Assembly: GCA_003576745.1 (NCBI GenBank)
Contig: QEVR01000001.1
Coordinates: 186,001-250,000, forward strand
Direction of reading: 5' to 3'
DNA length: 64,000 bases
Origin: Candidatus Uhrbacteria bacterium
GTDB lineage: Bacteria > Patescibacteriota > Patescibacteriia > 2-12-FULL-60-25
Positions 4,044-61,556 of the stretch are shown here, piece by piece (position 1 is the stretch's first letter; every line of letters starts with the position of its first letter). The notes beneath the pieces are model-generated. The model saw only the letters and a list, made by a program, of their open reading frames with translations. It ran no database searches and was not told the DNA's origin. A program made the translations under genes and the position numbers.

Positions 4044-4202
4044 GAGTACGTAGTTGCGTAGGACGTAGGTCGTGAGTCGTGATGTATGGGCCGCGGGCCA
4101 TGCGGTATGCGGGATGCACCATGCGGTATGCGGAAAGTGCGTAGTTGCGTAGGGGAGCATAATTCTCCCCGAACCCCTTTGCCCTTTGCCCTTTGCCCTT
4201 TG
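4044..4202. repeat. heptanucleotide tract A
   Basis: The 390-bp gap 3999-4389 holds no gene. From 4044 to 4155 the sequence divides into 16 consecutive 7-base units in one register, for example gtaggac, gtaggtc, then atgcggt, atgcggg. The unit pair tagttgc/gtagg occurs at 4051 and again at 4142, exactly 13 units apart. Four perfect ccctttg units follow at 4175-4202. Between them, 4142-4181 holds a core (tagttgcgtagg ... gcataattct ... cgaaccc) that recurs in inverted orientation at 28640-28680. The remainder (4203-4350) is lower in order but ends with similar aacccc-type words. Confidence 0.85.
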
Positions 4203-4353
4203 CCCTCAGCTCTTTTGCTAACAGCTAGCAGCTCCCACCTACAATCTTCCCCATAACCCCTGCCTTTAGCCCTTGCATCTGTCGTTCGTAGGCCCGTACG
4301 ACAGTAGGTTTGTTGGTAAGCGGTGTTCATCCTAGATCCGAACCCCGTAACCC

Positions 4354-4381
4354 TTGATTTTTCATGTCTTTTTGATACGGT
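4354..4381 (+). promoter_or_regulatory. promoter with extended -10, near-leaderless
   Basis: TTGATT (4354-4359), a 16-bp spacer and the extended -10 TGaTACGGT (4373-4381). The -10 ends 8 bases before ATG 4390, so transcription should begin at about the start codon. Confidence 0.55.
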
Positions 4382-8830: not shown

Positions 8831-9261
8831 GCCCGATCATCTATGCCGGCGCCGCCGGCATTGCCGCCGCCGGCATTATGCTGTTTCTTTCCCATGTCGC
8901 GCCGTTCGCCGGAGCGGGACGGGTGGTAAAGGATACGGATACCATGCGGCTGTTCGGGCGGCAGTATAGCCGCCGCGAGGCGCATGTTGCGGGTATCTTG
9001 GTTCACATCGCCGCCTCGTTTTGTTTCGGCGTCCTGTACGCATGGAGCGTCTCGCTCGGCATTGTTTCGGGATACGGATTTTGGCCGTTGTCCGCGTACG
9101 CGCTTTTGCTCACCATTGTTGTCGGGGGCGTGCTTATGCCCCTCGAAGGGCACGGTTTGTTCGGCAGAAAGGAGGATCCATGGTTCGCGTTCGATCTTCT
9201 TCTCGCGAATATCGGGTGGGTTATTCTGTTTGCGCTCATTATCCGGCTCTTGCCCGTGTAG
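8827..9261 (+). CDS. four-helix integral membrane protein of unknown function
   Basis: A protein of 144 residues with four predicted transmembrane helices, at roughly residues 2-28, 53-76, 83-105 and 118-142. The loop between helices 1 and 2 is charged (RVVKDTDTMRLFGRQYSRREAH). I recognise no family. ATG overlaps the stop of the lipoprotein gene, and xseA starts 3 bp after its stop, so it belongs to one operon with both. Confidence 0.75.
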   Translation: MSPIIYAGAAGIAAAGIMLFLSHVAPFAGAGRVVKDTDTMRLFGRQYSRREAHVAGILVHIAASFCFGVLYAWSVSLGIVSGYGFWPLSAYALLLTIVVGGVLMPLEGHGLFGRKEDPWFAFDLLLANIGWVILFALIIRLLPV

Positions 9262-9263
9262 CT

Positions 9264-10445
9264 ATGCGGATCTTTTCCGTCACGGAGTTCATCGAGCTGG
9301 TGAATGAAACGCTGCAGGCGCTTGGCACCTATGAGGCATTTGCCGTGGAAGGGGAAGTCTCCGGATATCGGGTGAATCAGGGGCAGTGGGTGACATTCGA
9401 TCTGAAAGATGAGCGGTCTCTCGTGAATGTGTTTCTGCCGATATGGAAGCTCCGGACACCGCTTGAGGACGGCATGCGCATTCGCGTGGCCGGGACGGGC
9501 AGGGTGTATGCCAAGTACGGAAAATTTTCCCTTTCTGCCGAGCAGATAGAGCTTGTTGGAGAGGGCGCTCTACGCAAGGCGCTTGCGCTTTTGCGCCATC
9601 GGCTCGAACAGGAGGGGCTGTTTACCTCGGAGCGAAAACGCGAATTGCCCCGTTTTCCACGCCGTATCGCGCTTATCGCCTCTCGCGACAGCGCGGCCTA
9701 CGGCGATTTTACGCGCATTGTCTGCGAGCGGTGGCCGCTTCTCGACATCCACCTCTACAATGTTCTCGTGCAGGGCGAGAGAGCTCCCGAGGATATCCGC
9801 CGCGCGTTGGCTGCCGTGCAGGCATCCGGCGAAGCGTATGACGCCGTCGTGCTGACCCGCGGCGGCGGATCATTCGAGGAACTCATGGCGTTCAACGATG
9901 AACAGCTCGCTCGCGACATTTTTGCCTCGCGCATACCCGTTCTGGCCGCGATCGGCCATGAGCGGGACGTCACGCTCGCGGAGGAAGCGGCGGACGTGCG
10001 CGGTTCCACCCCCACGGATGCGGCGCGACGCCTGGTTCCCGACCGGCGCGACGTGGAATATGAAATCGCGAGCCGCATACGGTCGATGTCGGATTCCTTG
10101 TTACGGCGTCTTCAGGAAAACCGCACCGCCCTTCACCGTATCCTCGAGTCTGGATCGCACTGGGCTTCTCGGTATCGCATTCAGGTAGACGCGTGGGCTT
10201 CCGCGACCGAGGGCGGTATGCGACAACTCCTCGAGTCGAATCGCGAACGGCTTCAGCATCTTACGCGCCTTCTCAAGGGTCTGGATCCTACGGCGGTGCT
10301 TGCGCGCGGATATTCCTTCGTTCAGGATACCCGCGGACGCGTCATTTCAGGCGTCAGCCGTCTTGGCAGGGGACAAGCTATTTTTGTCCGCATGAAAGAC
10401 GGCACTGCCGGCGCAACGGTCAATGTCGTGAAGAAACAATTCTAA
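9264..10445 (+). CDS. xseA: exodeoxyribonuclease VII large subunit
   Basis: Catalytic subunit of exonuclease VII, which degrades single-stranded DNA to oligonucleotides. The product has 393 residues. The N-terminal OB-fold (FAVEGEVSGYR..GQWVTFDLKDE) is followed by the family core: RIALIASRDSAAYGDF, VLTRGGGSFEELMAFNDE, PVLAAIGHERDVTLAEEAADVRGSTPTDAA, then a coiled-coil stretch and the C-terminal DPTAVLARGYSFV. ATG 9264 matches the usual N-terminus (SVTEFIELVNETLQ). xseB follows after 11 bp, the standard arrangement. Confidence 0.96.
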   Translation: MRIFSVTEFIELVNETLQALGTYEAFAVEGEVSGYRVNQGQWVTFDLKDERSLVNVFLPIWKLRTPLEDGMRIRVAGTGRVYAKYGKFSLSAEQIELVGEGALRKALALLRHRLEQEGLFTSERKRELPRFPRRIALIASRDSAAYGDFTRIVCERWPLLDIHLYNVLVQGERAPEDIRRALAAVQASGEAYDAVVLTRGGGSFEELMAFNDEQLARDIFASRIPVLAAIGHERDVTLAEEAADVRGSTPTDAARRLVPDRRDVEYEIASRIRSMSDSLLRRLQENRTALHRILESGSHWASRYRIQVDAWASATEGGMRQLLESNRERLQHLTRLLKGLDPTAVLARGYSFVQDTRGRVISGVSRLGRGQAIFVRMKDGTAGATVNVVKKQF

Positions 10446-28583: not shown

Positions 28584-28620
28584 TGGGGAAAGTAATTCGC
28601 TTTTGATGTTAGCAAAATGG

Positions 28621-28797
28621 AACAGGGCAAAGGGCTAAGGGAACGGGGTTCGGGAGAATTATGCCCCCTACGCAACTATGTCCTACAGGGCGCGGCATGC
28701 CGCGCCCCTACATCCTACTCCCCACACTCCCTATTCCGCATCCTACGCACCACGTCCTACGTACTTTTCGCATCCCGCATGGCTCAAGGCTCACGGT
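28621..28797. repeat. heptanucleotide tract B with palindromic centre
   Basis: Five in-register units at 28621-28655 (for example aacaggg, caaaggg). Then a stretch of about 40 bp that is the inverted counterpart of 4142-4181. Then a perfect 20-bp palindrome (28688-28707, centre gcggcatgccgc). Then 13 in-register units at 28707-28797 (for example cctacat, cctactc). It fills most of the gap between the two high-GC lipoprotein genes. Confidence 0.85.
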
Positions 28798-29139: not shown

Positions 29140-31836
29140 ATGAGTTCGAACGGAAACCGAGTGGCGGGGCGTGCCTGGAAATGGATGTTCCTTTCCAGCG
29201 TTCTCCTCGCGGCGGCAACGGGCTGTGTGGCCGGCAAAGATGCCGGCGACAATGGCTCCGACACCGCCAGCCGTACCCAGAATCTGGATACGGATGACGA
29301 CGGCATTTTGGACTGTTCGCAGTCCTGGCTGTCCTACGCCGACACGGGTTGCACGCCCGTGGACAACTGTCCCCTGAATCCCAACAACAACCAGCTCGAC
29401 TTCGATCTGGACGGGGACGGGGACGCCTGCGACGCCGATTTGGACGGCGATGGCGTGAACAACTGCGTGGATGGCGCGCTCTACCCGTGCTCGGACACGA
29501 GCTCGGGAAGCGGCCGCACCACGCCGTCGACGGATTTGGACAACTGCATGTTCGTCCCGAACGCAAGCCAGGTGGACACCGACAACGACGGCATGGGCGA
29601 TGCCTGCGATCCCGACAAGGACAATGACGGGATCACAGACGCGGACGACAATTGCCCGACCACCGCCAACCCCAACCAGGCGGACAAGGACAATGACGGA
29701 CAGGGCGACCTGTGTGACTTCGACACCGACAACGACGGCGTGTGCGATCCCGGCAACCCCCAGGTGGGCTGCGTGGGCTCGGACAACTGCCCCACCATTC
29801 CGAACGCCTTTCTCACCTGCGTGCCCGGCGACCCCAATCAAGGGGATGCCTACTGCGCCATGTTCGGCAGCGGCACCTGCGGCGCCGACAAGCGTTGTAC
29901 CACGCAAATGGACAACGATGCCGACGGCTTGGGCGACGTGTGCGATCCCGACGACGACAATGACGGGGTTCTGGACAGCCAGGACAACTGTCCGCTCGTC
30001 GCGAACGCAAACCAGGCCGACACCAACAAGGACGGCGTGGGCGATGCCTGCTCCGACGACAAGGACGGCGACGGCGTTCTGGATGGCAAGGACAATTGTC
30101 CGCTCGTCGTAAATCCGGGTCAGCAGGACACCAACCACGACGGCGTGGGCGATGCTTGCACCAATGACAAGGACGGCGACGGCATCGCGGACGGGCAGGA
30201 CAACTGTCCGGACGTGGCGAACAACAGCCAGCTCGATTCCGACTCGGACGGCATGGGCAATGCCTGTGACGCCGATGACGACAATGACGGCATCCTCGAC
30301 GTGAACGACAACTGTCCGCTCACGCCCAACCCTTCGCAGGCCGACCTCGACAATGACGGATTGGGTGACGCGTGCGATACGGACGATGACGGTGACGGCG
30401 TGCCCGATGCCACGGACAACTGTCCCTTGGTCGCGAATCCCACGCAGGCGAATGCCGACGGCGATGCCTTCGGCGACGCGTGCGACGACGACAGCGACAA
30501 TGACGGGGTTTGCAACCCCGGCGTCACGAGCTCCAGCCAGTGCACGGGCACGGACAACTGTCCCTTGGTCGCGAATCCCACGCAGTCGAATCTTGACGGC
30601 GATGCTTTCGGCGACGCGTGCGATCCGGATGCCGACGGAGACGGAGCGAACAGCCCCGCTTTTGGCGGCAACGACTGCTGCGACACCGGTCAGGAGTCCG
30701 GGCAGGGTCTGCGCATTTGCAATACCGTGGTGGCCTCGAGCATCAACCCGAGTGCAACCGAGGTGTGCGATTTGCAGGACAATGACTGCGACGGCGTCAT
30801 CGACGACGGCGTAGACGACGACAAGGACGGCTGGGCCGATGCGGCCACCGGCCTTTCGTGCCCGAGCCCCGGCGGCGCCGGCGACTGCAATGACAACGAT
30901 CCGTCCGTGCATCCCACGGCTGGCGAGCTCTGCGACGGCAAGGACAACAACTGCAATGGCTCGGTGGACGAGGGTTGCAGCGGCGGTCCGAGCGCGGAAA
31001 TCTGCGACGGGCTCGACAATGACATGGACGGCTTCGTGGACGAAGGCTTCCCGTGCGTGCAAAACACCACGGGGCTTCCGTGCACGAGCGTCTGCGGCAC
31101 GGCCGGCACCAGGAGCTGCTCCGCGACCTGCACGTTCATGACGTGCATGCCGCCGGCAGAGGCCTGCGCCAACGGCATCGACGATGACTGTGACGGTCTC
31201 GTCGACTGCCTCGACCCGAACTGCGCCGGCTATCCGGGCTGTTCGGGCGGATGCTCCGATTCGGACGGCGACGGGTACTATTTGCAGGCCGGCTGTGGAA
31301 CGCCACAGGACTGCAATGACGGGAACCCGAACGTGAACCCGGGCAAGACCGAGGTGTGCGGCAACGGCATCGACGATGACTGCAACGCTCTCACGAGCGA
31401 TGCATGCAGCGGCAGCGCCAATGTGCATATCAAATACGATGCCACGGGCTCCGGCTCGGCCTTCGCCCTCGCAGGCGGCGGCAACATCCACATCGAAGGC
31501 TGGTATGGGAGTACCCCGTGGGGCACCATCTGCACCGACACCAATGCGGCTCCGCTCGTGTTCGACTGCGACGTGAGTCTGCCGTCGGGCGTGTTCGTGG
31601 AGTTCCAGGTGTTCCTGCAGACCGCGGGCGCGCCGGGCGGGTATTCCTACTGGGGCGACCAGAGCTACACCACATGGGGCGGCAAGGGTTCGCTTCAGGG
31701 TGTGGTCACCGTTACCTCGGGCGGATCTCCGCGCGTGGTTTCGCTCGTGCAGGCGCCTTCGTACAGCAACCCGAATCCGGCAACCACCGGGGAGCCGGGC
31801 GAGCTGCTCACGTACAACGGGCGTTTCACCCCGTAA
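29140..31836 (+). CDS. large lipoprotein with thrombospondin type 3 and MopE-like repeats
   Basis: An 898-residue secreted lipoprotein (signal with AAATGC lipobox near residue 27). Residues about 45-510 contain some ten thrombospondin type 3 calcium-binding repeats of the form DxDxDGxxDxxDNCPxxxNPxQ. Residues about 520-770 carry MopE-type metal-binding repeats (CNDNDPSVHPTAGELCDGKDNNCNGSVDEGC pattern). A C-terminal domain of about 120 residues is unassigned. The protein would be a stiff, calcium-loaded surface stalk or adhesin. It has a good Shine-Dalgarno site (ggaggt, 6 bp before ATG) and high-GC codons unlike the flanking genes. It pairs with the upstream Gly-rich lipoprotein. Confidence 0.88.
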   Translation: MSSNGNRVAGRAWKWMFLSSVLLAAATGCVAGKDAGDNGSDTASRTQNLDTDDDGILDCSQSWLSYADTGCTPVDNCPLNPNNNQLDFDLDGDGDACDADLDGDGVNNCVDGALYPCSDTSSGSGRTTPSTDLDNCMFVPNASQVDTDNDGMGDACDPDKDNDGITDADDNCPTTANPNQADKDNDGQGDLCDFDTDNDGVCDPGNPQVGCVGSDNCPTIPNAFLTCVPGDPNQGDAYCAMFGSGTCGADKRCTTQMDNDADGLGDVCDPDDDNDGVLDSQDNCPLVANANQADTNKDGVGDACSDDKDGDGVLDGKDNCPLVVNPGQQDTNHDGVGDACTNDKDGDGIADGQDNCPDVANNSQLDSDSDGMGNACDADDDNDGILDVNDNCPLTPNPSQADLDNDGLGDACDTDDDGDGVPDATDNCPLVANPTQANADGDAFGDACDDDSDNDGVCNPGVTSSSQCTGTDNCPLVANPTQSNLDGDAFGDACDPDADGDGANSPAFGGNDCCDTGQESGQGLRICNTVVASSINPSATEVCDLQDNDCDGVIDDGVDDDKDGWADAATGLSCPSPGGAGDCNDNDPSVHPTAGELCDGKDNNCNGSVDEGCSGGPSAEICDGLDNDMDGFVDEGFPCVQNTTGLPCTSVCGTAGTRSCSATCTFMTCMPPAEACANGIDDDCDGLVDCLDPNCAGYPGCSGGCSDSDGDGYYLQAGCGTPQDCNDGNPNVNPGKTEVCGNGIDDDCNALTSDACSGSANVHIKYDATGSGSAFALAGGGNIHIEGWYGSTPWGTICTDTNAAPLVFDCDVSLPSGVFVEFQVFLQTAGAPGGYSYWGDQSYTTWGGKGSLQGVVTVTSGGSPRVVSLVQAPSYSNPNPATTGEPGELLTYNGRFTP
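30415..30623 (+). repeat. near-identical internal TSP3 repeat copies
   Basis: The 72-bp blocks 30415-30486 and 30552-30623 within the lipoprotein gene differ at only a few positions, over 30 identical bases in a row included. Other repeats in the gene have diverged further. This points to recent duplication or gene conversion of one repeat. Confidence 0.8.
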
Positions 31837-48472: not shown

Positions 48473-48539
48473 TCTTCCGGCTCGGGCTACGGCCTAGGCC
48501 TCTAGAAAACGCTTGCGAGCGCGTCTCGCGTACAAGCAG

Positions 48540-48564
48540 CCCCCCGGGTTTTTCCGGGGGGTTT
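48540..48564 (+). terminator. intrinsic terminator
   Basis: Perfect 8-bp stem CCCCCCGG/CCGGGGGG (48540-48547, 48554-48561) with a T5-6 loop, followed by TTT. Strong end for the candidate S-layer transcript. Confidence 0.9.
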
Positions 48565-48570
48565 GCTATG

Positions 48571-48718
48571 GGGAGGTTGGTGGTTATTGGATATTCGTTA
48601 TTGGTTGTTGGTTTGGAGAATGAGAAGCGTTCCTGTGTAAAACCCGATAGAAAAAAACCAGCAACCAATAACCAACAACTATCAATCGGCTGCCATTTAC
48701 CAATTGCTATTTTCTGTC
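48571..48718. repeat. heptanucleotide tract C
   Basis: Eight units at 48571-48626 (for example tattggt, tgttggt) and nine at 48656-48718 (for example aaccagc, aaccaat), separated by about 30 bp. The second block is the approximate reverse complement of the first (ttggttg against caaccaa), so the tract is also an imperfect inverted repeat. The downstream end provides the promoter of the next gene. Confidence 0.8.
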
Positions 48719-51612: not shown

Positions 51613-52791
51613 TTACGCCACGCCATGTTTCGGCGCGAGCACGCGGAATGTGTCGTCCCACATGCGCTGTTCCTGAAATCGTTCCTGAATTTGGCTGCGT
51701 CCCGCTTGCCCCATCATCCCGCGTTTTTCCGGGCGCTGCATTATATTATCTATCGCATCCGCCAGCGCCTTTGGCGTTTTCGGCGGCACGATGATGCCCG
51801 CATCGCCAAGCATCCAGCGGTTGGCGCCGACATCCGTTGCAATGCAGGGAATAGAGGCCGCCATGGCCTCGAGCAGAGTCCATGGCATGCCTTCTTTGGC
51901 GGAGGGGAGGACAAAGATATCCGCTCCGCGGAGCAGGGAAGCGATATTGTTCCGTTTTCCCGGGAGCGAAACCCTATCTTCTAGTCCGAGTTCCCCACGC
52001 TTCGCTTCCAGCATGCGCCGTTCATCTCCGTCGCCGACAATGAGAAAACGAAGGTCGTTCTTATTCCGGATGAGTTTTATGGCGTCCATATATCCGAGAA
52101 GATCTTTTGTCGGATAAAAATTCGCGATCGTCAGAATGATGTACGCAGCATCACGATTGCGCGATGCTGTTGCCACATCCGTTTCCCAGAGATCGTGGAG
52201 CGCGCTCCGTGCCGCCTCGCGCGGCAGGAGCCGGCTTTCAAAAGTTTCGATGTCGAGACCATTCGGAATGGCCGCAATCGCTTCCCGCGCTATAATGCCG
52301 TGGCGTTTTGCGAGCTCCGCATCGCCGGGATGTACGACGATAATGACATCTTTCAGAGGCGCCGTCAGCTTTTCCATCCAGAGACGAAGCGTTTTTTGCA
52401 GCGGAGAAACGGGATCCAAAAAAGACCATCCCCCGATGCGGTATACAATACGCGGAACGTCCTCGCGGTGCGCGGCAATGGAACCGAGAACCCCGGCCTT
52501 GGAACTGTGAAGATACACGGTATCCGGTTTCCATTCGCGGAGCAGCGCGCGTATTTCGCGTATGCCCTTTATGTCTTTCATTGGCGCGAGCGGCCGCACG
52601 AGATGCTCAAGCGCACGCGATGCGATTCCGGCTCCTGCGCATTCGTCGGGTAAATCTCCTTTACCACCATACGCCACCAAAACATCAAATCCGCGCCGAC
52701 GGGCTTCCATGGCGGCTTTCACGATATATTGCTGAACGCCGCCCCAATCCGCCTGGGTCACGATAAAGAGAATTCGCCCGTTTTCCTGCAT
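51613..52791 (-). CDS. GT4 family glycosyltransferase
   Basis: A 392-residue GT-B enzyme: MQENGRILFIVTQADWGGVQQYIVKAAMEA, PDTVYLHSSKAGVLGSIAA, VVHPGDAELAKRHG, AIPNGLDIETFES, then TIANFYPTKDLLGYMDAI and the donor-site PSAKEGMPWTLLEAMAASIPCIATDVG. ATG 52791 is preferred over ATG 52800 because the -10 hexamer of a good promoter overlaps the latter, so the expected transcript begins at 52791. It is the only glycosyltransferase gene of the region on the minus strand. Confidence 0.9.
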   Translation of the reverse strand: MQENGRILFIVTQADWGGVQQYIVKAAMEARRRGFDVLVAYGGKGDLPDECAGAGIASRALEHLVRPLAPMKDIKGIREIRALLREWKPDTVYLHSSKAGVLGSIAAHREDVPRIVYRIGGWSFLDPVSPLQKTLRLWMEKLTAPLKDVIIVVHPGDAELAKRHGIIAREAIAAIPNGLDIETFESRLLPREAARSALHDLWETDVATASRNRDAAYIILTIANFYPTKDLLGYMDAIKLIRNKNDLRFLIVGDGDERRMLEAKRGELGLEDRVSLPGKRNNIASLLRGADIFVLPSAKEGMPWTLLEAMAASIPCIATDVGANRWMLGDAGIIVPPKTPKALADAIDNIMQRPEKRGMMGQAGRSQIQERFQEQRMWDDTFRVLAPKHGVA

Positions 52792-52798
52792 ACATGCC

Positions 52799-52827
52799 AT
52801 CTTAGTCAGGTCCGGTCATCTTGACAA
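52799..52827 (-). promoter_or_regulatory. promoter predicting a leaderless mRNA
   Basis: On the minus strand: TTGTCA (52827-52822), 17-bp spacer, TAAGAT (52804-52799). Seven bases separate the -10 from ATG 52791. Confidence 0.6.
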
Positions 52828-52871
52828 ATCGGCTAAATGTAGCTGAAAAGGTAGAATGCAGGGGATGGGGA

Positions 52872-53039
52872 GTAGGACGTAGGTCGTGAGGTATGTGTCG
52901 TGAGTCATGCGGTTTGCGGGATGCGGGGGTGCGGTATGCGCCCCGTAACCCGAACCCCATAACCAATAACCCGTAACCCGAACCCCGTCACCCTTCCCTT
53001 TGCCCTCTTTTCCCAATTCCCAATTGCTAATTGCCAAAA
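52872..53039. repeat. heptanucleotide tract D, longest uninterrupted register
   Basis: Twenty-four consecutive 7-base units in one register (168 bp). The unit motif drifts along the tract: gtaggac/gtaggtc, then atgcggt/ttgcggg, then cccgtaa/cccgaac, then cccaatt/cccaatt and gctaatt. The word gtaggacgtaggtcgtgag is shared exactly with tract A (4058). The tract ends 13 bp before the asnB start codon. Confidence 0.9.
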
Positions 53040-53051
53040 GAAGCCCCCAGT

Positions 53052-54899
53052 ATGTGCGGCATTGCAGGAATGATTACCAAATACGGAGCTCCTCCTGACG
53101 AGGGGATGCTTCGGCGCATGACGTCTCTGCTCGCGCATCGGGGACCGGACGGGGAAGGGGTGTGGGCGGCGCCGGGTGTTGGCCTGGGACATCGGCGTCT
53201 TGCGATTATCGACGTATCGCCAACCGGAGCCCAGCCAATGCATTCCGCGGACGGCCGATTGACTATTGTCTATAACGGAGAGCTGTATAACTATAAGGAA
53301 TTGCGCAAAGTGTTTGAGGCGGACGGTTCGGTGTTTCGATCCGCATCGGATACGGAGGTTCTTTTGGAAACATATCGACGGTATGGAAAGGATTGCGTCA
53401 AACATCTCCGCGGCATGTTCGCGTTTGCCATTTGGGATGCGGAACAGAAGCAACTTTTTTTCGCCCGAGATCGCATCGGCAAAAAACCATTCTTCTACCG
53501 GACGCTCCCAGACGGGAGCCATGCGTTCGCCTCTGAACTGAAAGCGCTGCTACCACTCGCGCCGGCGACCGTTGATGCCTGCGCGATACGCCTGTTCTTT
53601 GGTCTGCAATATGTGCCATCCCCGCGCACAGGGTATGAAAATATTTTCAGCCTTCCGCCCGGGTATCGCGGCTTCGCCGATGCATCAGGCGTGCGCGTGG
53701 AATCGTACAATGACTGGAAGGATGTCATGCCGCCGACCGAGGGCGCGACGGAGGAAACGATACGCCGCCTGCTTGAAGACGCGGTAAGAGTTCGCCTGCA
53801 GGCCGACGTTCCCGTCGGAGCATTCCTTTCCGGCGGCATTGATTCCGCCGCGGTCATTGCATTCGCGTCAAAACACGCTTCATCTCCGATACGCACGTTC
53901 ACCATGGGATTTCCAGAAGCGCATATGGACGAGCGCGCGGAAGCCCGGCGCCTTTCCGAATACTTTCATACCGATCATACGGAATTCGAAGCAAAACCGG
54001 AGGATCTGCTCGCCATCGGTTCACAGGTCATCGCGCAGTATGACGCACCGTACGCGGATTCATCCGCGCTCCCGCTCTGGCTTTTGGCGCGCGAGACGGC
54101 TAAAGAGATCAAGGTTGTGCTCACGGGCGATGGCGGCGATGAACTCTTCGGCGGCTATCGCCGTTATATGGCCTATGCGCAGGCGCTTCTGCTCTCCAAG
54201 TTGCCGGGCGTGTCGACCGCGCTTCTGGCCGCGGGTCATTCCGTGAACGATGCCGGGCTCATTCGCATGGGCGAGACGGTATTCCATGCATCAAAAAATC
54301 CATCGCGCGCGTATGGCGAGCTTTTTACCGGATCGTATTTTTCCACCAATCGTTCCGCATCGCTCCTTTCGCCCGCCTTCGCGGGAGCAACGGCAACCTG
54401 CGATCCCGCGCATTTTGTCGAGAGTATGATGAAGGGCGACGGTAAGCCGCTTGAACGCGCAATGCGTTTCGACCTCGCCTCGTATCTCCCGGACGATCTG
54501 AACGTGAAAATGGACCGCGCAACCATGGCATTCGGTTTGGAAGCCCGATCGCCGTTTTTGGACCAGTATTTGGTGGGTTTTGCGATTGGTTTACCCTTGA
54601 AAACAAAGGTGAATTATGGTAATACCAAGGTCGGCCTGAAGCGCGCGCTACGGGGCATTGTTCCTGAAGAAGTCTTGAAGCGGAAAAAGCGCGGATTCCA
54701 GGTGCCATTGGCGCAATGGTTCCGCGGTCCGCTTGCACCGCGCTGGAAGGAACGTTGCCTCGATCCGCATGCCAAGCTCGCGGCATACGTAAAAACGGAT
54801 CAGACAGAAAGGCTTTTCCGCGAGAATGCGCAGGGCGCGGATCACGGCAATCGCCTGTATATGCTGTATGCGCTGGCGGAATGGCTGGGTAGGAATTAG
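53052..54899 (+). CDS. asnB: asparagine synthetase (glutamine-hydrolysing)
   Basis: A 615-residue enzyme. The N-terminal glutaminase (class II amidotransferase) has the nucleophile as Cys2 (MCGIAGM), followed by HRGPDGEG, GLGHRRLAIID and YNGELYNYKELR. The synthetase domain has the PP-loop-type LSGGIDSAAV, GDGGDELFGGYRRY and NVKMDRATMAFGLEARSPFLD. It converts aspartate to asparagine. In glycan loci, AsnB paralogues may instead amidate sugar carboxylates; the neighbouring uronic-acid SDR makes this worth noting. It is framed by heptad tracts D and E, and its last codons and stop lie within tract E. Confidence 0.93.
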   Translation: MCGIAGMITKYGAPPDEGMLRRMTSLLAHRGPDGEGVWAAPGVGLGHRRLAIIDVSPTGAQPMHSADGRLTIVYNGELYNYKELRKVFEADGSVFRSASDTEVLLETYRRYGKDCVKHLRGMFAFAIWDAEQKQLFFARDRIGKKPFFYRTLPDGSHAFASELKALLPLAPATVDACAIRLFFGLQYVPSPRTGYENIFSLPPGYRGFADASGVRVESYNDWKDVMPPTEGATEETIRRLLEDAVRVRLQADVPVGAFLSGGIDSAAVIAFASKHASSPIRTFTMGFPEAHMDERAEARRLSEYFHTDHTEFEAKPEDLLAIGSQVIAQYDAPYADSSALPLWLLARETAKEIKVVLTGDGGDELFGGYRRYMAYAQALLLSKLPGVSTALLAAGHSVNDAGLIRMGETVFHASKNPSRAYGELFTGSYFSTNRSASLLSPAFAGATATCDPAHFVESMMKGDGKPLERAMRFDLASYLPDDLNVKMDRATMAFGLEARSPFLDQYLVGFAIGLPLKTKVNYGNTKVGLKRALRGIVPEEVLKRKKRGFQVPLAQWFRGPLAPRWKERCLDPHAKLAAYVKTDQTERLFRENAQGADHGNRLYMLYALAEWLGRN

Positions 54900-54954
54900 C
54901 AATTAGGAATTGGCAATTGGACGAATTCCCAATTCCAAATTCCCAATTGCTGCA
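54892..54954. repeat. heptanucleotide tract E
   Basis: Nine in-register units (for example ggaatta, gcaatta, then tcccaat, tccaaat). The first unit contains the asnB stop codon (TAG 54897-54899), so the tract encodes the last residues of AsnB. Its first half is the reverse complement type of the end of tract D, so asnB is bracketed by inverted related repeats. Confidence 0.85.
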
Positions 54955-54960
54955 TTCATC

Positions 54961-55893
54961 ATGAAACGCATTCTCGTTACCGGCGGAGCCGGGTTTGTTG
55001 GTTCGCACTTGTGCGACCGTCTTGTTCGTGACGGTCATGAAGTGGTGTGTCTTGATAATCTGTTTACCGGCTCCAAGCGGAATATTGAGCATCTTTTGCG
55101 TCATCCGAAATTTTTATTCGTCGAACGTGATATACAGGAACCGTTTTTCGGGCACTTCGACCGCATATACAATCTGGCATGTCCGGCATCGCCGCCGCAT
55201 TATCAGCACGATCCGGTTGAAACCATGCGCACGAATGTGCTCGGCATGATCACATGCCTCGAGCTCGCAAAGCAAACCGGCGCGCGCGTATTGCAGGCGT
55301 CTACGTCCGAAATCTACGGCGATCCGGAAGTGCATCCCCAGCACGAGGAATACTGGGGCAATGTGAATCCTCTGTCGCGCCGCGCATGTTATGATGAAGG
55401 CAAACGCTGCGCTGAAACGCTTTGTTTCGATTATCATCGCGAATACGGCGTGGATGCGCGCATTGTCCGCATTTTTAATACCTATGGCCCGAACATGGCC
55501 AAGAATGACGGACGCGTGGTCTCGAACTTTATTTTGCAAGCGCTCCGGGGAGAACCCATAACCATTTACGGCGACGGTTCGTTTACGCGCAGTTTTCAGT
55601 ACGTGGACGATCTTGTCGACGGCATGATCATGATGATGGAGAATGAATCGGGTTTTTTCGGGCCGGTGAATCTTGGCAATCCCGGCGAGTTCACCATTCG
55701 AGAGCTTGCGGACATGGTGATTTCGCTTACCGGTTCAACGTCGACGATTCAGCACCTTCCGGAGGTTCCTCATGATCCAAAACAGCGAAAGCCGGATATT
55801 ACGCTCGCGCGGACGCGGCTTGGCTGGGCGCCGCGCGTGCCGCTTCGCGAGGGGCTCAAAAAAACCATCGAATATTTCCGCAGAGTCATATGA
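54961..55893 (+). CDS. SDR-family nucleotide-sugar enzyme, UDP-glucuronate decarboxylase (UXS)-like
   Basis: A 310-residue extended SDR. The NAD-binding motif is [17 protein letters not shown]. The UXS marker is [22 protein letters not shown], the active site is [14 protein letters not shown] with Tyr/Lys in YDEGKRCAE, and it ends in [35 protein letters not shown]. These features match UXS, which oxidises and decarboxylates UDP-glucuronate to UDP-xylose. It should supply a pentose donor for the glycosyltransferases downstream. Overlaps the next gene by 4 bp. Confidence 0.88.
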
Positions 55894-57131
55894 GAGTCCT
55901 GATTTTTTCCACGGTGTATGTTCCGCTTGTTGGCGGCGCAGAGGTGGCCATGAGGGAAATTACGGATCGTATTTCGGATATCGAGTTCGACCTTATTTGC
56001 GCGCGCGTTCGTCCCGGCCTTGCTTCTATGGAACGCATCGGGAATGTCACGGTACATCGGGTGGGGTTTGGCAGGCCATTCGATAAATTTTTGCTTCCAT
56101 TCCTCGGCCCGGTACGCGCCCTTCTTTTGAAGGGGTCGGGTGACATCAAGGTCGTCTGGGCACTCATGGCGAGTTATGGAGGCTTTGCAGCGCTTGTATA
56201 CACCTGGATCCGTCCGCGCTCGAAATTCCTCCTCACGCTTCAGGAAGGCGACCCGCTCGAGCATTATGCCAAGCGAGCAGGGATGCTCCGGTTTTTGCAT
56301 AAAAAGGTTTTTGAGCGCGCAGACGCCGTGCAGGCCATTAGCCATTTTTTGGCGAAATGGGCCACGAACATGGGATTCAAAGGACGGCCGGAAGTGGTGC
56401 CGAATGGGGTGGACTTGAAGTTGTTCGGGAAGTCGGGAGTCGGGAGTGGGGAGTCGGAGGAAGGAGCAATGAGCAATGGGCAATGGGCAGAGGGCATGGA
56501 TATGAAAGATCAGATTGACCCACAACCCACGATGTACGACGTTCGGGAAGCTGGAAGCGGGAAGCGGGACGCAATACGCCATCAATACGGCTTTGGAACG
56601 GATGACGTCATTTTGATCACAACCTCGCGGCTCTCACTCAAGAACGGTGTGGATGACCTTATCCGCTCGCTTATCCATCTGCCTGCGAAGTATAAAACGC
56701 TCGTCGTGGGAGAAGGGGAGGATCGCGACAAACTCGTGTCTTTGGCGAAACAGAAAGGACTTGAAGATCGAGTGGTGTTTGCGGGACTTAAACAACATCA
56801 CGAACTTCCAAATTTACTCCGCGCTTCGGATGTGTTTGTCCGTCCTTCGCTTTCCGAAGGGCTCGGCATTTCGTTTTTGGAAGCCATGGCCGCCGGCATT
56901 CCCATTATCGGTACGCCCGTGGGCGGCATTGTGGATTTCCTTTTGGACGGTCATACGGGCTTGTTTTGCCAGCCGCGTGATCCTGAATCTATCGCCAAGG
57001 CCGTCCTGCATGTGCAGGAAGACCCGTCGCTTCGAGAGCGCATCATTCTGCAGGCAGGGGAGCTGGTTCGGAAAAGCTATGACTGGGACAAGATCGCTGG
57101 CCGCATGAAAGAGATGCTTACATCCCTATGA
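55890..57131 (+). CDS. GT4 family glycosyltransferase with in-frame heptad-tract insertion
   Basis: A 413-residue GT-B enzyme. N-domain: [57 protein letters not shown]-domain: [70 protein letters not shown], with the EX7E-like donor site. Between them, residues about 180-229 ([18 protein letters not shown] and on) have no counterpart in other GT4 enzymes and are encoded by heptad tract F. Most GT4 proteins pass from PNGVD to the C-domain in about 15-20 residues. It overlaps both neighbours by 4 bp. Confidence 0.9.
56428..56574 (+). repeat. heptanucleotide tract F inside a glycosyltransferase gene
   Basis: Twenty-one consecutive 7-base units (147 bp = 49 codons) in one register, for example gggagtc, gggagtg; tgggcaa, tgggcag; gaagcgg, gaagcgg. 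The reading frame of the host gene is kept because 21 units are divisible by 3. The units drift in the same way as in the intergenic tracts. Confidence 0.9.
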
Positions 57132-57847: not shown

Positions 57848-58926
57848 AATACCTTTTTGCCTGTGGCATTCTGCCTCCGGAGATCGGCGGACCATCGACG
57901 GTGGTTTCGGATCTGGCGAAAACGCTCGCCGGCGCGGGGCATGCGGTTACGATCGTGACATATACAGAGCGGCCTGATCCGATCGAGGGCGTGCGCATCG
58001 TTTCCATTCCGCGTGGAGGCTCCGCGTTGTCCCGTTATTTTCGTTTCGCGCACGCACTCCGATCCGCCATGCATGACGCGGACGCCGTGTGTGCGACAGA
58101 TGTCTTTTCCGTCGGCATTCCGACGCGATTCGCCCTCATGGGGACGACAAAAAAGTTCGTGCTCCGCTTGGGCGGCGAATGGCGATGGGAATCTGCCGTG
58201 AACCGGGGAGAGCTCGTGACGCTTGCGGAGGTGTGGGCGCGGTCTTTGGGCGTGCGCGGACGCATGGAAATGCTGAATTACCGCTGGATCATGAGGCGAG
58301 CGTTTCGCATCTTTGTGACGTCGAGTCTGCTGAAAGAAAAACTACAGGGAGTTGCTGCAACGCCGATCGAAGTGATCCCGAATCTTCCGCTGACAAACTG
58401 TGAGCATCCTGTTTCGCATACAGCGCATCAGCCTCTCCGCCTACTCTATGTCGGCCGCTTCGAGCCGGTGAAGAACATGCCGTTTTTTGCGAAGGTTCTC
58501 GCAACGCTCCATGAACGCGGCGTCCCGTTCATCTGCAGTTTCGTCGGCGACGGCTCGGAATTGCCGAAATGCAGAGATATTTTGAAAGATGTGCCGGGCA
58601 TTTCTTTTTTCGGTATTCGGCCGCATGCGGAATTGCAGAAGCTGTTTGCCGAACACGATCTTCTTATTCTTCCGTCCTTAAGCGACATTTGTCCGAATAG
58701 CGTGGTAGAAGCCCTTGCCTGCGGCCTTCCGTGCATCGTAACGAATGGACATGGACTCCCTCGGCCGCTTCAGGGCGCCATTGAATGCGATCCGAAGAAT
58801 GTTGATGACTGGATTCGCGCCATTCAGTCCCTTACGGACGCGAAGGCGTATCGGATGCTTTTCGAAGCGGTGCGACCCGTTTCCGTTCCTGCGCGTACGC
58901 TCCTTCATGCCATGCAAGCGCTATGA
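57844..58926 (+). CDS. GT4 family glycosyltransferase
   Basis: A 360-residue GT-B enzyme: MKYLFACGILPPEIGGPSTVVSDLAKTLAGAGH, DADAVCATDVFSVGIPTRF, VTSSLLKEKLQGV, then LLYVGRFEPVKNMPFFAKVLATLHE and IRPHAELQKLFAEHDLLILPSLSDICPNSVVEALACGLPCIVTNG. The usual first Glu of EX7E is replaced in the SDICPNSVVEAL region (Asp), a variation seen in some subfamilies. Overlaps its neighbours by 4 bp on each side. Confidence 0.88.
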   Translation: MKYLFACGILPPEIGGPSTVVSDLAKTLAGAGHAVTIVTYTERPDPIEGVRIVSIPRGGSALSRYFRFAHALRSAMHDADAVCATDVFSVGIPTRFALMGTTKKFVLRLGGEWRWESAVNRGELVTLAEVWARSLGVRGRMEMLNYRWIMRRAFRIFVTSSLLKEKLQGVAATPIEVIPNLPLTNCEHPVSHTAHQPLRLLYVGRFEPVKNMPFFAKVLATLHERGVPFICSFVGDGSELPKCRDILKDVPGISFFGIRPHAELQKLFAEHDLLILPSLSDICPNSVVEALACGLPCIVTNGHGLPRPLQGAIECDPKNVDDWIRAIQSLTDAKAYRMLFEAVRPVSVPARTLLHAMQAL

Positions 58927-61556
58927 GGATTCTCGTTTTCGGATACGACCGTGATTTGCTAAAACCGGATTCGGATGCCGCGCGGCGGCAGATGGCGTTT
59001 GCGGAACAGCGGAATCTGTATTTGGATATCGCGCTTTTGTCACGCGGCGAGCGGGATCAGGACATTCGTCTTTCCGAGCGCGTGCGCGTCCGCATGTTCC
59101 GTGGGAATATTTTTCGAAGGCTCTGGAAGAGTTTTCGAGCCGGCATTCACGAAAGCATGCATCTCGTGAGTGCCCAAGATCCATTCGCGTCCGCGATGCT
59201 CGCCTTCGCGGTTTCCCGATGGCGGAATATCCCGTTCGAAATACAAGAGCATGCGGATTTTTATTCCGGCGAATGGGAGAAGGAAACCCCCTTCATCAAC
59301 CGTTTTCTTGCCTTCCTCGGCAAACGCTTCTTGAAGCGCGCGGACGCCGTGCGCGCCGTGAGCGAGCGCGTGAAAGAGCATCTCATCGCGCGAGCGGGAG
59401 TATCGCCCGAACGGATCTCGTTTTTTTCCGTCTCCCAGGACCTCTCCGGGCTCCTCGCGCTTCCATTGCGTCCGTGGCCATCAGATGCGCCGACCATTGT
59501 CATGCCGTGCCGTTTTGTGAGGCAGAAGGGGATAGGGATGGCTTTAGAAGCATTTACGCGTGTTCGAGATTCGGGAAGCGGGGTTGAGCAGGGCAAAGGG
59601 AAAAGGGCAAAGGGTGGATATCGACGCACGACGCACGACGAATCCGGTTCGGCCAACGACCCACGTCCCATGACCCATGGCTTCCGAGTGGAGTTGTATG
59701 GAAGCGGGAAGCTTGAAGGGTGGATCAAGAAAAGGATAGACGAGCTTGGCCTGCAGGACGTCGTTTCCGTGATGCCGTGGACGGAGCCTGTGGATATCTG
59801 GAAGCGTGCGGATCTCTTCGTATTATCGTCGACCTATGAAGGATGGGGGAGGACCGTTGTCGAAGCCATGGCTGCCGGCGTTCCGGTGGTGACGACGAAT
59901 GTCGGATGCGTCGGTTCATTTTTCCGTCCACAGCTCGACGGCCGCGTGGTTGAACCGCATGACGCGGATGCGCTCGCGTCCGCCATTCGCGAACAGTTTG
60001 ACGAAGGCGAACGGAGAGAGAGGATGCGCGTGAATGCCCGTGAACGTGCGCGAAGTTTTCCGAACCGTGAAATGCTCCAACATTCGCAAATAGAATCCTG
60101 GCGCCATGCGCGCGAGCGCGTAACGGATGGGAGCCGGCGTTTTGATTTGTGGGTCATCGCCTTTGTCGCATTCGCCGTTCTTTCGCGCGCGGCATCGGTG
60201 ATCCTTTTTCATCACTCGCTTTTGAATCGCGATGACGGCCCGTTCATTCTTGTTCAATCATGGTTTCAGGAACTTGGATATACCTTCGCCAATCAGCTTG
60301 GGTGTCCGTCCGCATATCGCTCGCCGGGATTTTTGTTCTTCCTGACAGCGCTGTACACATTCTTTTCGCCGGACAATACGCTTGCGCAGGCTATCGTTCA
60401 GAATATCGTGGCCGTGGGAATACTCTGGCTCGTGTATGTTGTGGGAAAAGAGCTCGTGGGAAAACGCGCGGCTCTCATCGGCGCATTTCTCATGGCCGCG
60501 TATCCGTACACGTTCTATCATTACACGCAGTATTATCACACCTTCCTTTCCAGTTTCTTTTTGCTTCTTCTCGTTTGGTTTTTGCTGAAGCTCGCAAAGA
60601 CCAAACGGCCTTCATTCGCATTCGGCGCCGGCGCGAGCATTGCCGCGCTTGCCTATGTGCAGGGAACGATTTTAGCCGCGACGCCGTTTATCGTGCTATG
60701 GCTCTGGTGGTATTGGCGTTTTGACTGGAAAAAAACATGTATCGCCGCGGCGATCATGGCCGTGGTTTCCGCCGGTCTCATTGCGCCATGGACATACAGG
60801 AATTCCAAAGCGTTCCATGCATTCGTTCCATTAACCACGGATTTGGGCTTCGGATTCGCAAAAGCGAATAATGAGAATATTTACGCGCTCACGAAATACG
60901 GGTATCCGCAGGAAAGCGTGAACGATATCATCGTTTCCTCAACGAATCCCGGCTATGTGCAGTATCACGTTCCCATTGACACTCGGGAATCGTTCGCTGC
61001 CGACGGCTTGGCGGTTATCCCATCCGTACTGTGGACGGAATGGCATCCGAAAGAACCCGTCCGCGATACGGATGAAAACAATGTTTCCTGTTCGGAACTT
61101 GGTCCTTTGAATGAAGCGGAATACGGCGAGTATTGGAAGAATATCGGCATGACATGGCTTTCATCGAATTGGTTCAGCGAGGGGTGGAAGCTTCAGCTCC
61201 TCAAAATCAAAACGTTCTGGCAGCCGTCGCTGTTCCCGTCCGTGAAAATGGGCGCGGCTTGGCCATTTGCCGACAATCCTCTTAAGGTTTGGTTTGCGAG
61301 GCTATCACTGACCGTTGCCGCGAGTATCGTCATCTTTGGCGGGTTCTTCGGTCTCGGCCTTTCGCTCGCGAAAAAGAACAGGCGCGTCTGGCTTCCGATT
61401 GCTATTATCGTCATCTATACGGTTATGCATTCCCTCTTCGCCGGATATACCAAATACCGCATTCCGTTGGATAATCTCATGGCGATGTATGCCGGCTATG
61501 CGCTCGTGACCCTCTGGGACGCTTTCCGTAATCGGAAACAGAAGACTTCCGTATGA
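58923..61556 (+). CDS. GT4 glycosyltransferase fused to a GT-C (GT39/ArnT-like) membrane glycosyltransferase
   Basis: An 877-residue two-enzyme protein. Residues 1-390 form a GT4 GT-B enzyme: RILVFGYDRDLLKPDSDAARRQ, ADAVRAVSERVKEHL, PTIVMPCRFVRQKGIGMALEAF, FVLSSTYEGWGRTVVEAMAAGVPVVTTNVG. Residues about 410-870 form a multi-helix GT-C module with the first-loop acid (LLNRDDGPFIL) and YRSPGFLFFLTALYTFF, matching the RSPGYPLFLA-type motif of PMT_2/GT39-like enzymes, and a large external loop. The first half would use nucleotide sugars in the cytoplasm; the second would use lipid-phosphate sugars outside. Heptad tract G adds residues about 216-255. The downstream DPM1-like GT2 may supply the lipid donor. 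Confidence 0.85.
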   Translation: MRILVFGYDRDLLKPDSDAARRQMAFAEQRNLYLDIALLSRGERDQDIRLSERVRVRMFRGNIFRRLWKSFRAGIHESMHLVSAQDPFASAMLAFAVSRWRNIPFEIQEHADFYSGEWEKETPFINRFLAFLGKRFLKRADAVRAVSERVKEHLIARAGVSPERISFFSVSQDLSGLLALPLRPWPSDAPTIVMPCRFVRQKGIGMALEAFTRVRDSGSGVEQGKGKRAKGGYRRTTHDESGSANDPRPMTHGFRVELYGSGKLEGWIKKRIDELGLQDVVSVMPWTEPVDIWKRADLFVLSSTYEGWGRTVVEAMAAGVPVVTTNVGCVGSFFRPQLDGRVVEPHDADALASAIREQFDEGERRERMRVNARERARSFPNREMLQHSQIESWRHARERVTDGSRRFDLWVIAFVAFAVLSRAASVILFHHSLLNRDDGPFILVQSWFQELGYTFANQLGCPSAYRSPGFLFFLTALYTFFSPDNTLAQAIVQNIVAVGILWLVYVVGKELVGKRAALIGAFLMAAYPYTFYHYTQYYHTFLSSFFLLLLVWFLLKLAKTKRPSFAFGAGASIAALAYVQGTILAATPFIVLWLWWYWRFDWKKTCIAAAIMAVVSAGLIAPWTYRNSKAFHAFVPLTTDLGFGFAKANNENIYALTKYGYPQESVNDIIVSSTNPGYVQYHVPIDTRESFAADGLAVIPSVLWTEWHPKEPVRDTDENNVSCSELGPLNEAEYGEYWKNIGMTWLSSNWFSEGWKLQLLKIKTFWQPSLFPSVKMGAAWPFADNPLKVWFARLSLTVAASIVIFGGFFGLGLSLAKKNRRVWLPIAIIVIYTVMHSLFAGYTKYRIPLDNLMAMYAGYALVTLWDAFRNRKQKTSV
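59569..59687 (+). repeat. heptanucleotide tract G inside the fused glycosyltransferase gene
   Basis: About 15-17 units in one register, for example agggcaa, agggaaa, agggcaa; cgcacga, cgcacga; cccacgt, cccatga, cccatgg. If the insert is 59576-59680 it is 15 units (105 bp, 35 codons), which keeps the frame. The encoded segment (SGSGVEQGKGKRAKGG, then RRTTHDESGSANDP) separates AFTRVRD from RVELYGSGKL, where other GT4 proteins have a few residues. Confidence 0.85.

Follow-up and report, generated by a model that had tools for sequence, protein, structure and literature searches.

Since 2007, heptamers have reportedly been recognised as the most frequent of the long simple repeats in the genomes of many bacteria, and the STRR heptanucleotide repeats of cyanobacteria are said to have been described by Mazel in 1990. 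The class – heptameric repeats that are over-represented in many bacteria – is a known one. PMC4692102, which cites three Calothrix heptanucleotides, reports G-rich heptamers, GGGNATC, in Xanthomonas and Nostoc (Rehm 2015). Sites shared by related species vary in sequence and length; in Xanthomonas, the heptamers often form inverted pairs and no preference for the leading or the lagging strand was found (Rehm et al., PMC4692102). Direct repeats of TAACTGA have been described in Beggiatoaceae, cyanobacteria and Bacteroidetes (MacGregor 2015, PMC4679880). No earlier report of heptamer arrays in Patescibacteria was found in the literature searched.

The arrays described here lie in a 64,000-nucleotide stretch (the window) of contig QEVR01000001.1 from a Candidatus Uhrbacteria bacterium, in which seven tracts of seven-base units had been noticed and likened to the cyanobacterial STRR repeats. 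The likeness was borne out in kind: both are dispersed, intergenic tandem arrays of 7-bp units. Compared by description only, the present arrays are unlike STRR repeats in being degenerate and in having many vocabularies per genome, an order of modules and a replication polarity. With the GGGNATC heptamers they share a GGG in every 7 nt, an intergenic location and, among congeners, common sites with varying sequence; they differ in that they are oriented by replication, include octamers, and in related species are often free of G runs. Like the TAACTGA repeats they are intergenic heptamer direct repeats by gene starts, but those consist of one fixed heptamer, whereas here there are many degenerate arrays, including in-frame arrays within genes. 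The replication polarity, the insertions within genes and the turnover of sequence at a fixed period are new.

Tract D (52872–53039) has a lag-7 identity of 0.61 and a segment score of 39; in 1,000 dinucleotide shuffles the score averaged 4.0 and peaked at 10. The six other tracts (Table 1) have scores from 15 to 42, the lowest being those of 28621–28797 (15) and 59569–59687 (17), and none of 1,000 dinucleotide shuffles equalled them at lags 4 to 12. The seven tracts are genuine, and all of them beat the shuffles at lag 7. The original prediction was to be given up if lag 7 showed no excess or if such tracts were absent from the rest of the genome. Stretches totalling 393 kb of this genome hold 42 segments periodic at lag 7 and 9 at lag 8, with 0–2 segments at each of the other non-harmonic lags (the harmonic lag 14 excepted) and none in first-order Markov sequence. 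The congeners G001 and G003 have a similar lag profile. With this excess, and with tracts elsewhere in the genome, neither ground for giving it up applies. Tandem 7-bp units are present beyond chance, and the arrays belong with the bacterial heptameric tandem repeats; in place of one or a few fixed heptamers, there are many heptamers and octamers per genome. The arrays are dispersed and mainly intergenic, as judged from crude gene calls (the longest open frames). Two of the seven tracts, 56428–56574 and 59569–59687, sit within genes rather than spacers.

Table 1. Periodic tracts of the window and neighbouring genes (positions are those of the window).
Feature	Position	Strand	Remarks
Tract D	52861–53040	+	Mosaic repeat family element; lag-7 segment, shuffle test, self-homology depth 16
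Mosaic family element	4045–4358	+	Modules GTAGTTGCGTAGG, GGGGAGCATAATTCTCCCC hairpin, (CCCTTTG)n, period-8 GTAGGCCCGTACGACAGTAGG
Mosaic family element, minority orientation	28609–28780	-	Carries GTAG-tagged palindrome GGGCGCGGCATGCCGCGCCC
Heptamer hairpin	48571–48718	.	Arms of TTGGTTA / TAACCAA type; just 3' of canonical-looking terminator (~48538–48566)
Heptamer hairpin TAGGAATTAGCAATT / AATTCCCAATTCC	54890–54954	.	Between asnB and epimerase gene
Private heptamer array in glycosyltransferase gene 55890–57131	56425–56582	+	In frame
Heptamer array in glycosyltransferase gene 58923–61556	59569–59687	+	In frame
asnB (asparagine synthase)	53052–54899	+	Directly downstream of tract D; between-species anchor
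Divergent gene, other flank of tract D	51613–52800	-	Orthologues adjoin asnB in three congeners

The pattern (CCCNNNN)3CCC occurs 91 times, at about 55 loci, in the 1.06-Mb genome. Of 41 genomes from the family, 16 contain it, and it has at least one match in 76 of 287 sampled across the phylum, with few matches in most and 40 or more in a few; some of the matches in the phylum and family samples are poly-C or chance. The genomes of the phylum sample are small (0.4 to 2.0 Mb), which fits the placement of this organism in Patescibacteria. A set of contigs from many phyla (563 kb, which had been picked for a different purpose) gave 13 segments at lag 7 and 1 to 6 at other lags. Outside the phylum, period-7 arrays were found in Oscillochloris (L198), Kuenenia (L213), Chloroflexus (L215) and a Gemmatimonadetes bacterium (L222). 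The view that such repeats are unexpected in Patescibacteria was thus only partly right, given the matching genomes of the phylum and the arrays in other phyla. The Oscillochloris contig carries a very long GAAATGC heptamer array as well as a heptamer hairpin, GATTTTG / CAAAATC. Heptamer arrays seemingly within an Ala/Ser-rich coding region were seen in L080 and in L310:12798–12893 (G031).

An all-against-all comparison around the (CCCNNNN)3CCC loci gave 58 self-similar segments with a mean length of 191 bp. One of these (L054), which is coding-repeat-like, was set aside and 57 elements were kept, a number that is a lower bound: because elements were selected by a C-rich pattern, the family has further members beyond these. 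Its modules come in a common order – GGGAGTAGG and GTAGTTGCGTAGG, in some elements a GTAG-tagged palindrome, ATGCGG and CATGCGCC, CCCGTAA-CCCGAAC-CCCATAA, CCCTTTG, CCCAATT – and the best pair of elements, with the same module order, is up to 93% identical over 212 bp. Three of the seven tracts are members (4045–4358, 28609–28780 and 52872–53040), and those at 48571, 54892, 56428 and 59569 lie outside the family, so that what had been presented as one family is a mixture.

Tract D has the G-rich heptamers GTAGGAC and ATGCGGG and then the C-rich series CCCGTAA, CCCGAAC, CCCATAA, CCAATAA, followed by CCCTTTG and CCCAATT. A four-unit block forms a 28-bp higher-order repeat at 52942–52992, and there is no palindrome inside. 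Since the modules have a common order, the apparent free drift along the tract is an inherited order; the motif drift described earlier fails for all three members of the family, whose modules recur in fixed order genome-wide. A strict register, also claimed, is kept by tract D overall (a 5+7+9 step near 52986 compensates) and not by the family, in which lags 8 and 15 stand out.

Unit identity within the elements is 0.487 at lag 7 and falls to 0.404, 0.349, 0.306, 0.290 and 0.274 at lags 14, 21, 28, 35 and 42, reaching the random level, 0.254, at lag 49. Adjacent units are thus most alike, which fits local duplication of units followed by mutation, and strand slippage, as had been suggested, is the likeliest process of growth. 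Lags 8, 15 and 22 form a further series (0.344 at lag 8 and 0.325 at lag 15), from which it follows that the register slips by one base at times; several modules of the family are octameric (GGTCCGTA). The 13-bp marker GTNGTTGCGTAGG has 216 matches with at most one mismatch, against 12 for a control. The elements have no fixed ends, their alignments stopping at differing modules, and long matches to the mosaic element are confined to this species.

At 29538–30644 of the window, tandem 108-bp coding repeats (GACGGC / GATGCC runs) lie in a long open frame and resemble calcium-binding thrombospondin type-3 repeats; L054 has a similar repeat. The palindrome GGGCGCGGCATGCCGCGCCC has a run of N inside it at L049:1042–1314 and a contig end inside it at L039, and the assembly therefore breaks at this palindrome.

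The main rival to slippage and template switching is that the mosaic family consists of REP/BIME-like non-autonomous elements with the heptamers as passengers, and that these elements were spread, on the single-stranded template of the lagging strand, by a Y1 (HUH) transposase since lost. It is the main rival because the GTAG palindrome is found in many elements and is widespread among phyla: GTAG followed by an imperfect palindrome (GTAG-GGGCGCGGCATGCCGCGCCC; GTAG-GGGGAGCATAATTCTCCCC) is the signature of GTAG-tagged REPs (PMC3733652). The first of these two, tag included, has exact matches in more than 100 contigs from many phyla, as has the exact 23-mer GTAGGGGCGCGGCATGCCGCGCC, a cosmopolitan GTAG-tagged palindrome (L163–L242). 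Like GTAG REPs and BIMEs with RAYT (PMC3733652), the elements are mosaic and intergenic; their replication polarity is compatible with transposition of single-stranded DNA, and REP hosts may be without transposase genes (Di Nocera et al.). Unlike those systems, they contain period-7 arrays, for which a palindrome cannot account; many of them, tract D among them, are without the palindrome, and the family has no fixed ends. A REP transposase Y1 (PF01797) had no match in this genome (G000), G001 or G003, the single genome of the genus with a match being G002. We consider such an origin unlikely.

The site upstream of asnB, occupied here by tract D, has an octamer hairpin in G001 (GTGCTTGA / TCAAGCAC), an octamer-like hairpin in G003 (TTGTTNNA / AACAATAC) and a TCTACCC array in G002, so that an array is found at this divergent site in all four species. 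The other species of the genus retain the period (7 or 8) and not the sequence, even at the asnB site. At the corresponding position, two congeners lack the heptamer hairpin that lies downstream of asnB here. At the 48571 site, a terminator-like hairpin common to three species is followed in each by a different inverted repeat, which is periodic in two of the three. The coincidence of sites may be due in part to the small number of spacers.

All 17 long hairpins found in 60 kb of G003 are built of period-7 or period-8 arms. Across 19 hairpins of this species (one stretch added), complementarity between arms is 95%, against 74% identity between the units of one arm, and therefore the arms were copied from each other. 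The array GTGAGTAG GTGAGTAT GCGAGTAG GTAAGTAG, for example, has its exact reverse complement opposite, variant units included. Such hairpins are rare in this genome, with 5 in 393 kb. The arrays of the relatives are often without G runs, as in AATTTCT, AACTCTT and TAACCAT.

A regulatory role for the arrays, as G-quadruplexes (in DNA or RNA), as terminators or as arrays in 7-nt steps for an RNA- or DNA-binding protein, would agree with the end of tract D ca. 12 bp upstream of asnB and with the presence of an array at that site in four species. A GGG in every 7 nt is a putative quadruplex, as shown for GGGNATC repeats (PMC4692102), and runs of at least four GGG at 7-nt steps occur at about 55 loci here but not in the AT-rich arrays of the relatives; for TAACTGA repeats, cold-shock or Csr proteins have been proposed as binders. 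Against this role, arrays occur in every gene arrangement (13 convergent, 23 tandem, 9 divergent) and within genes as well, a separate terminator adjoins the 48571 array, the RNA fold of the elements is barely better than that of shuffles (mean z −0.6), many arrays of the relatives lack G runs, and Rfam has no match. We hold regulation to be quite unlikely as the explanation. Three narrower candidates were rejected: structured RNA (z ca. −0.6 for the G-to-C strand and −0.15 for the opposite one, Rfam empty), terminators (convergent genes have no clear excess of arrays between them, and one array has a separate terminator next to it) and the G-quadruplex as a general cause (G runs are missing from many arrays).

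The elements are oriented with respect to replication. In the stretches sampled, contigs C1 and C2 have a positive GC skew; that of C3 is positive at its start and mostly negative beyond 97 kb. The terminus is placed from GC skew only. The orientation of the marker flips from + at C3:85,683 to − at C3:89,811, and marker loci divide 49:8 on one side and 2:16 on the other (Fisher p=1e-8). The leading orientation is found in 45 of the 55 elements on strand-assigned contigs (binomial p=2e-6). Genes adjoining the elements have no orientation preference (28:22 and 26:26), so the bias tracks replication and not transcription, and its origin as a by-product of gene direction was rejected; nor are the C3 genes past the flip predominantly on the minus strand. 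Base skew was likewise rejected as the source of the bias. The elements run from G-rich to C-rich, with a G share of 0.81 falling to 0.27, and this layout is the same when inverted, so the bias must depend on sequence.

It is decidedly unlikely that a dedicated, replication-coupled activity writes steps of 7–8 nt into spacers and protein loops in many bacterial phyla, with the letters left free and, in this lineage, in one fork orientation. Nor do we think it at all probable that the elements are selected polar signals for a translocase, kept in orientation by selection in the way that KOPS/AIMS octamers guide FtsK to the terminus: very unlikely is our estimate. As with those octamers (PMC5993296), there is a skew to one strand that switches at the inferred terminus, where GC skew flips, and the 13-bp motif is present in ca. 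216 copies. Unlike them, the elements are long and degenerate, no gradient was shown (judged by eye, their density did not clearly increase towards the terminus), and long matches to them are found in this species only, while G003 has symmetric hairpins.

Outside the mosaic family, arrays can be private to their site. A genome-wide search with the 48571 tract found only pieces of 28–48 bp elsewhere, and one with the 56428 tract only a 24-bp piece. The 56428 insert has no full-length donor, so it either arose in place or came from a donor since lost or diverged. The host gene encodes, by Pfam matches, a group-1 glycosyltransferase (P0002), whose linker at the array has 53 aa compared with 15–16 aa in the orthologues of G001 and G002 (ca. 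60% overall identity). The 59569 tract lies in the gene of a second glycosyltransferase (P0003); at this point three orthologues are ca. 33 residues shorter. Both arrays keep the frame, and the orthologues of the genus are without either insert; on the simplest reading, periodic DNA would have been added to both genes in this lineage. In G003, the first glycosyltransferase has an orthologue (L358 ~9106–9822) of 239 codons only, with most of the middle missing.

The private array without a donor, and the sharp limit to 7–8 nt with free sequence, would suit a novel enzyme, a primase-polymerase or similar, that adds units by recopying a short template. No candidate was found, the reverse transcriptase (PF00078) that the original prediction named as a possible linked enzyme is absent from this genome, and the decay between units and the higher-order repeats look like ordinary slippage; we regard such an enzyme as highly improbable. 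Spread by phages or plasmids was rejected, a 383-bp element having no match in either the phage or the plasmid collection.

We give about an even chance to the reading that the tracts are degenerate tandem arrays from a replication-linked process, made up of slippage in 7-nt steps, template switching from arm to arm, and fork-coupled copying of the family. Local slippage would add or remove DNA by 7 nt (less often 8) or multiples of it, and point mutations afterwards would make the units drift. In the related species, one arm of an array would also serve as the template for the other, probably through template switching within a hairpin. Some arrays of this genome would have become a mosaic family, whose segments reached many spacers by copying, in an orientation that depends on the fork. 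Arrays would persist where they do little harm: in spacers, and in protein loops if in frame. Slippage and template switching are favoured as the agents because of the decay between units, the higher-order blocks, the copying of arms and the private array without a donor.

Plain slippage leaves it unexplained that the unit is 7–8 nt rather than longer. Contact with the polymerase may be the source of the seven: Mrazek 2007, as cited in PMC4679880 and PMC4692102, proposed 7 nt as the length that contacts the polymerase. The polarity of a non-symmetric family also needs more than slippage, and copying between loci is needed for a mosaic family. That this family is polar suggests that such copying occurs at the fork, which would in turn give the family its polarity.

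The preference of bacterial repeats for seven has lacked a tested cause since 2007, which is what makes these arrays a matter of interest. Across four species of the genus, genes and gene order agree, and so does the step length at one and the same spacer, and yet the letters differ: a natural experiment. Conserved enzymes carry ca. 30–40 extra, array-coded residues in loops, and the replication-strand bias was unseen in an earlier study of another heptamer family. The natural experiment, the loops and the strand bias make the question of why seven a testable one.
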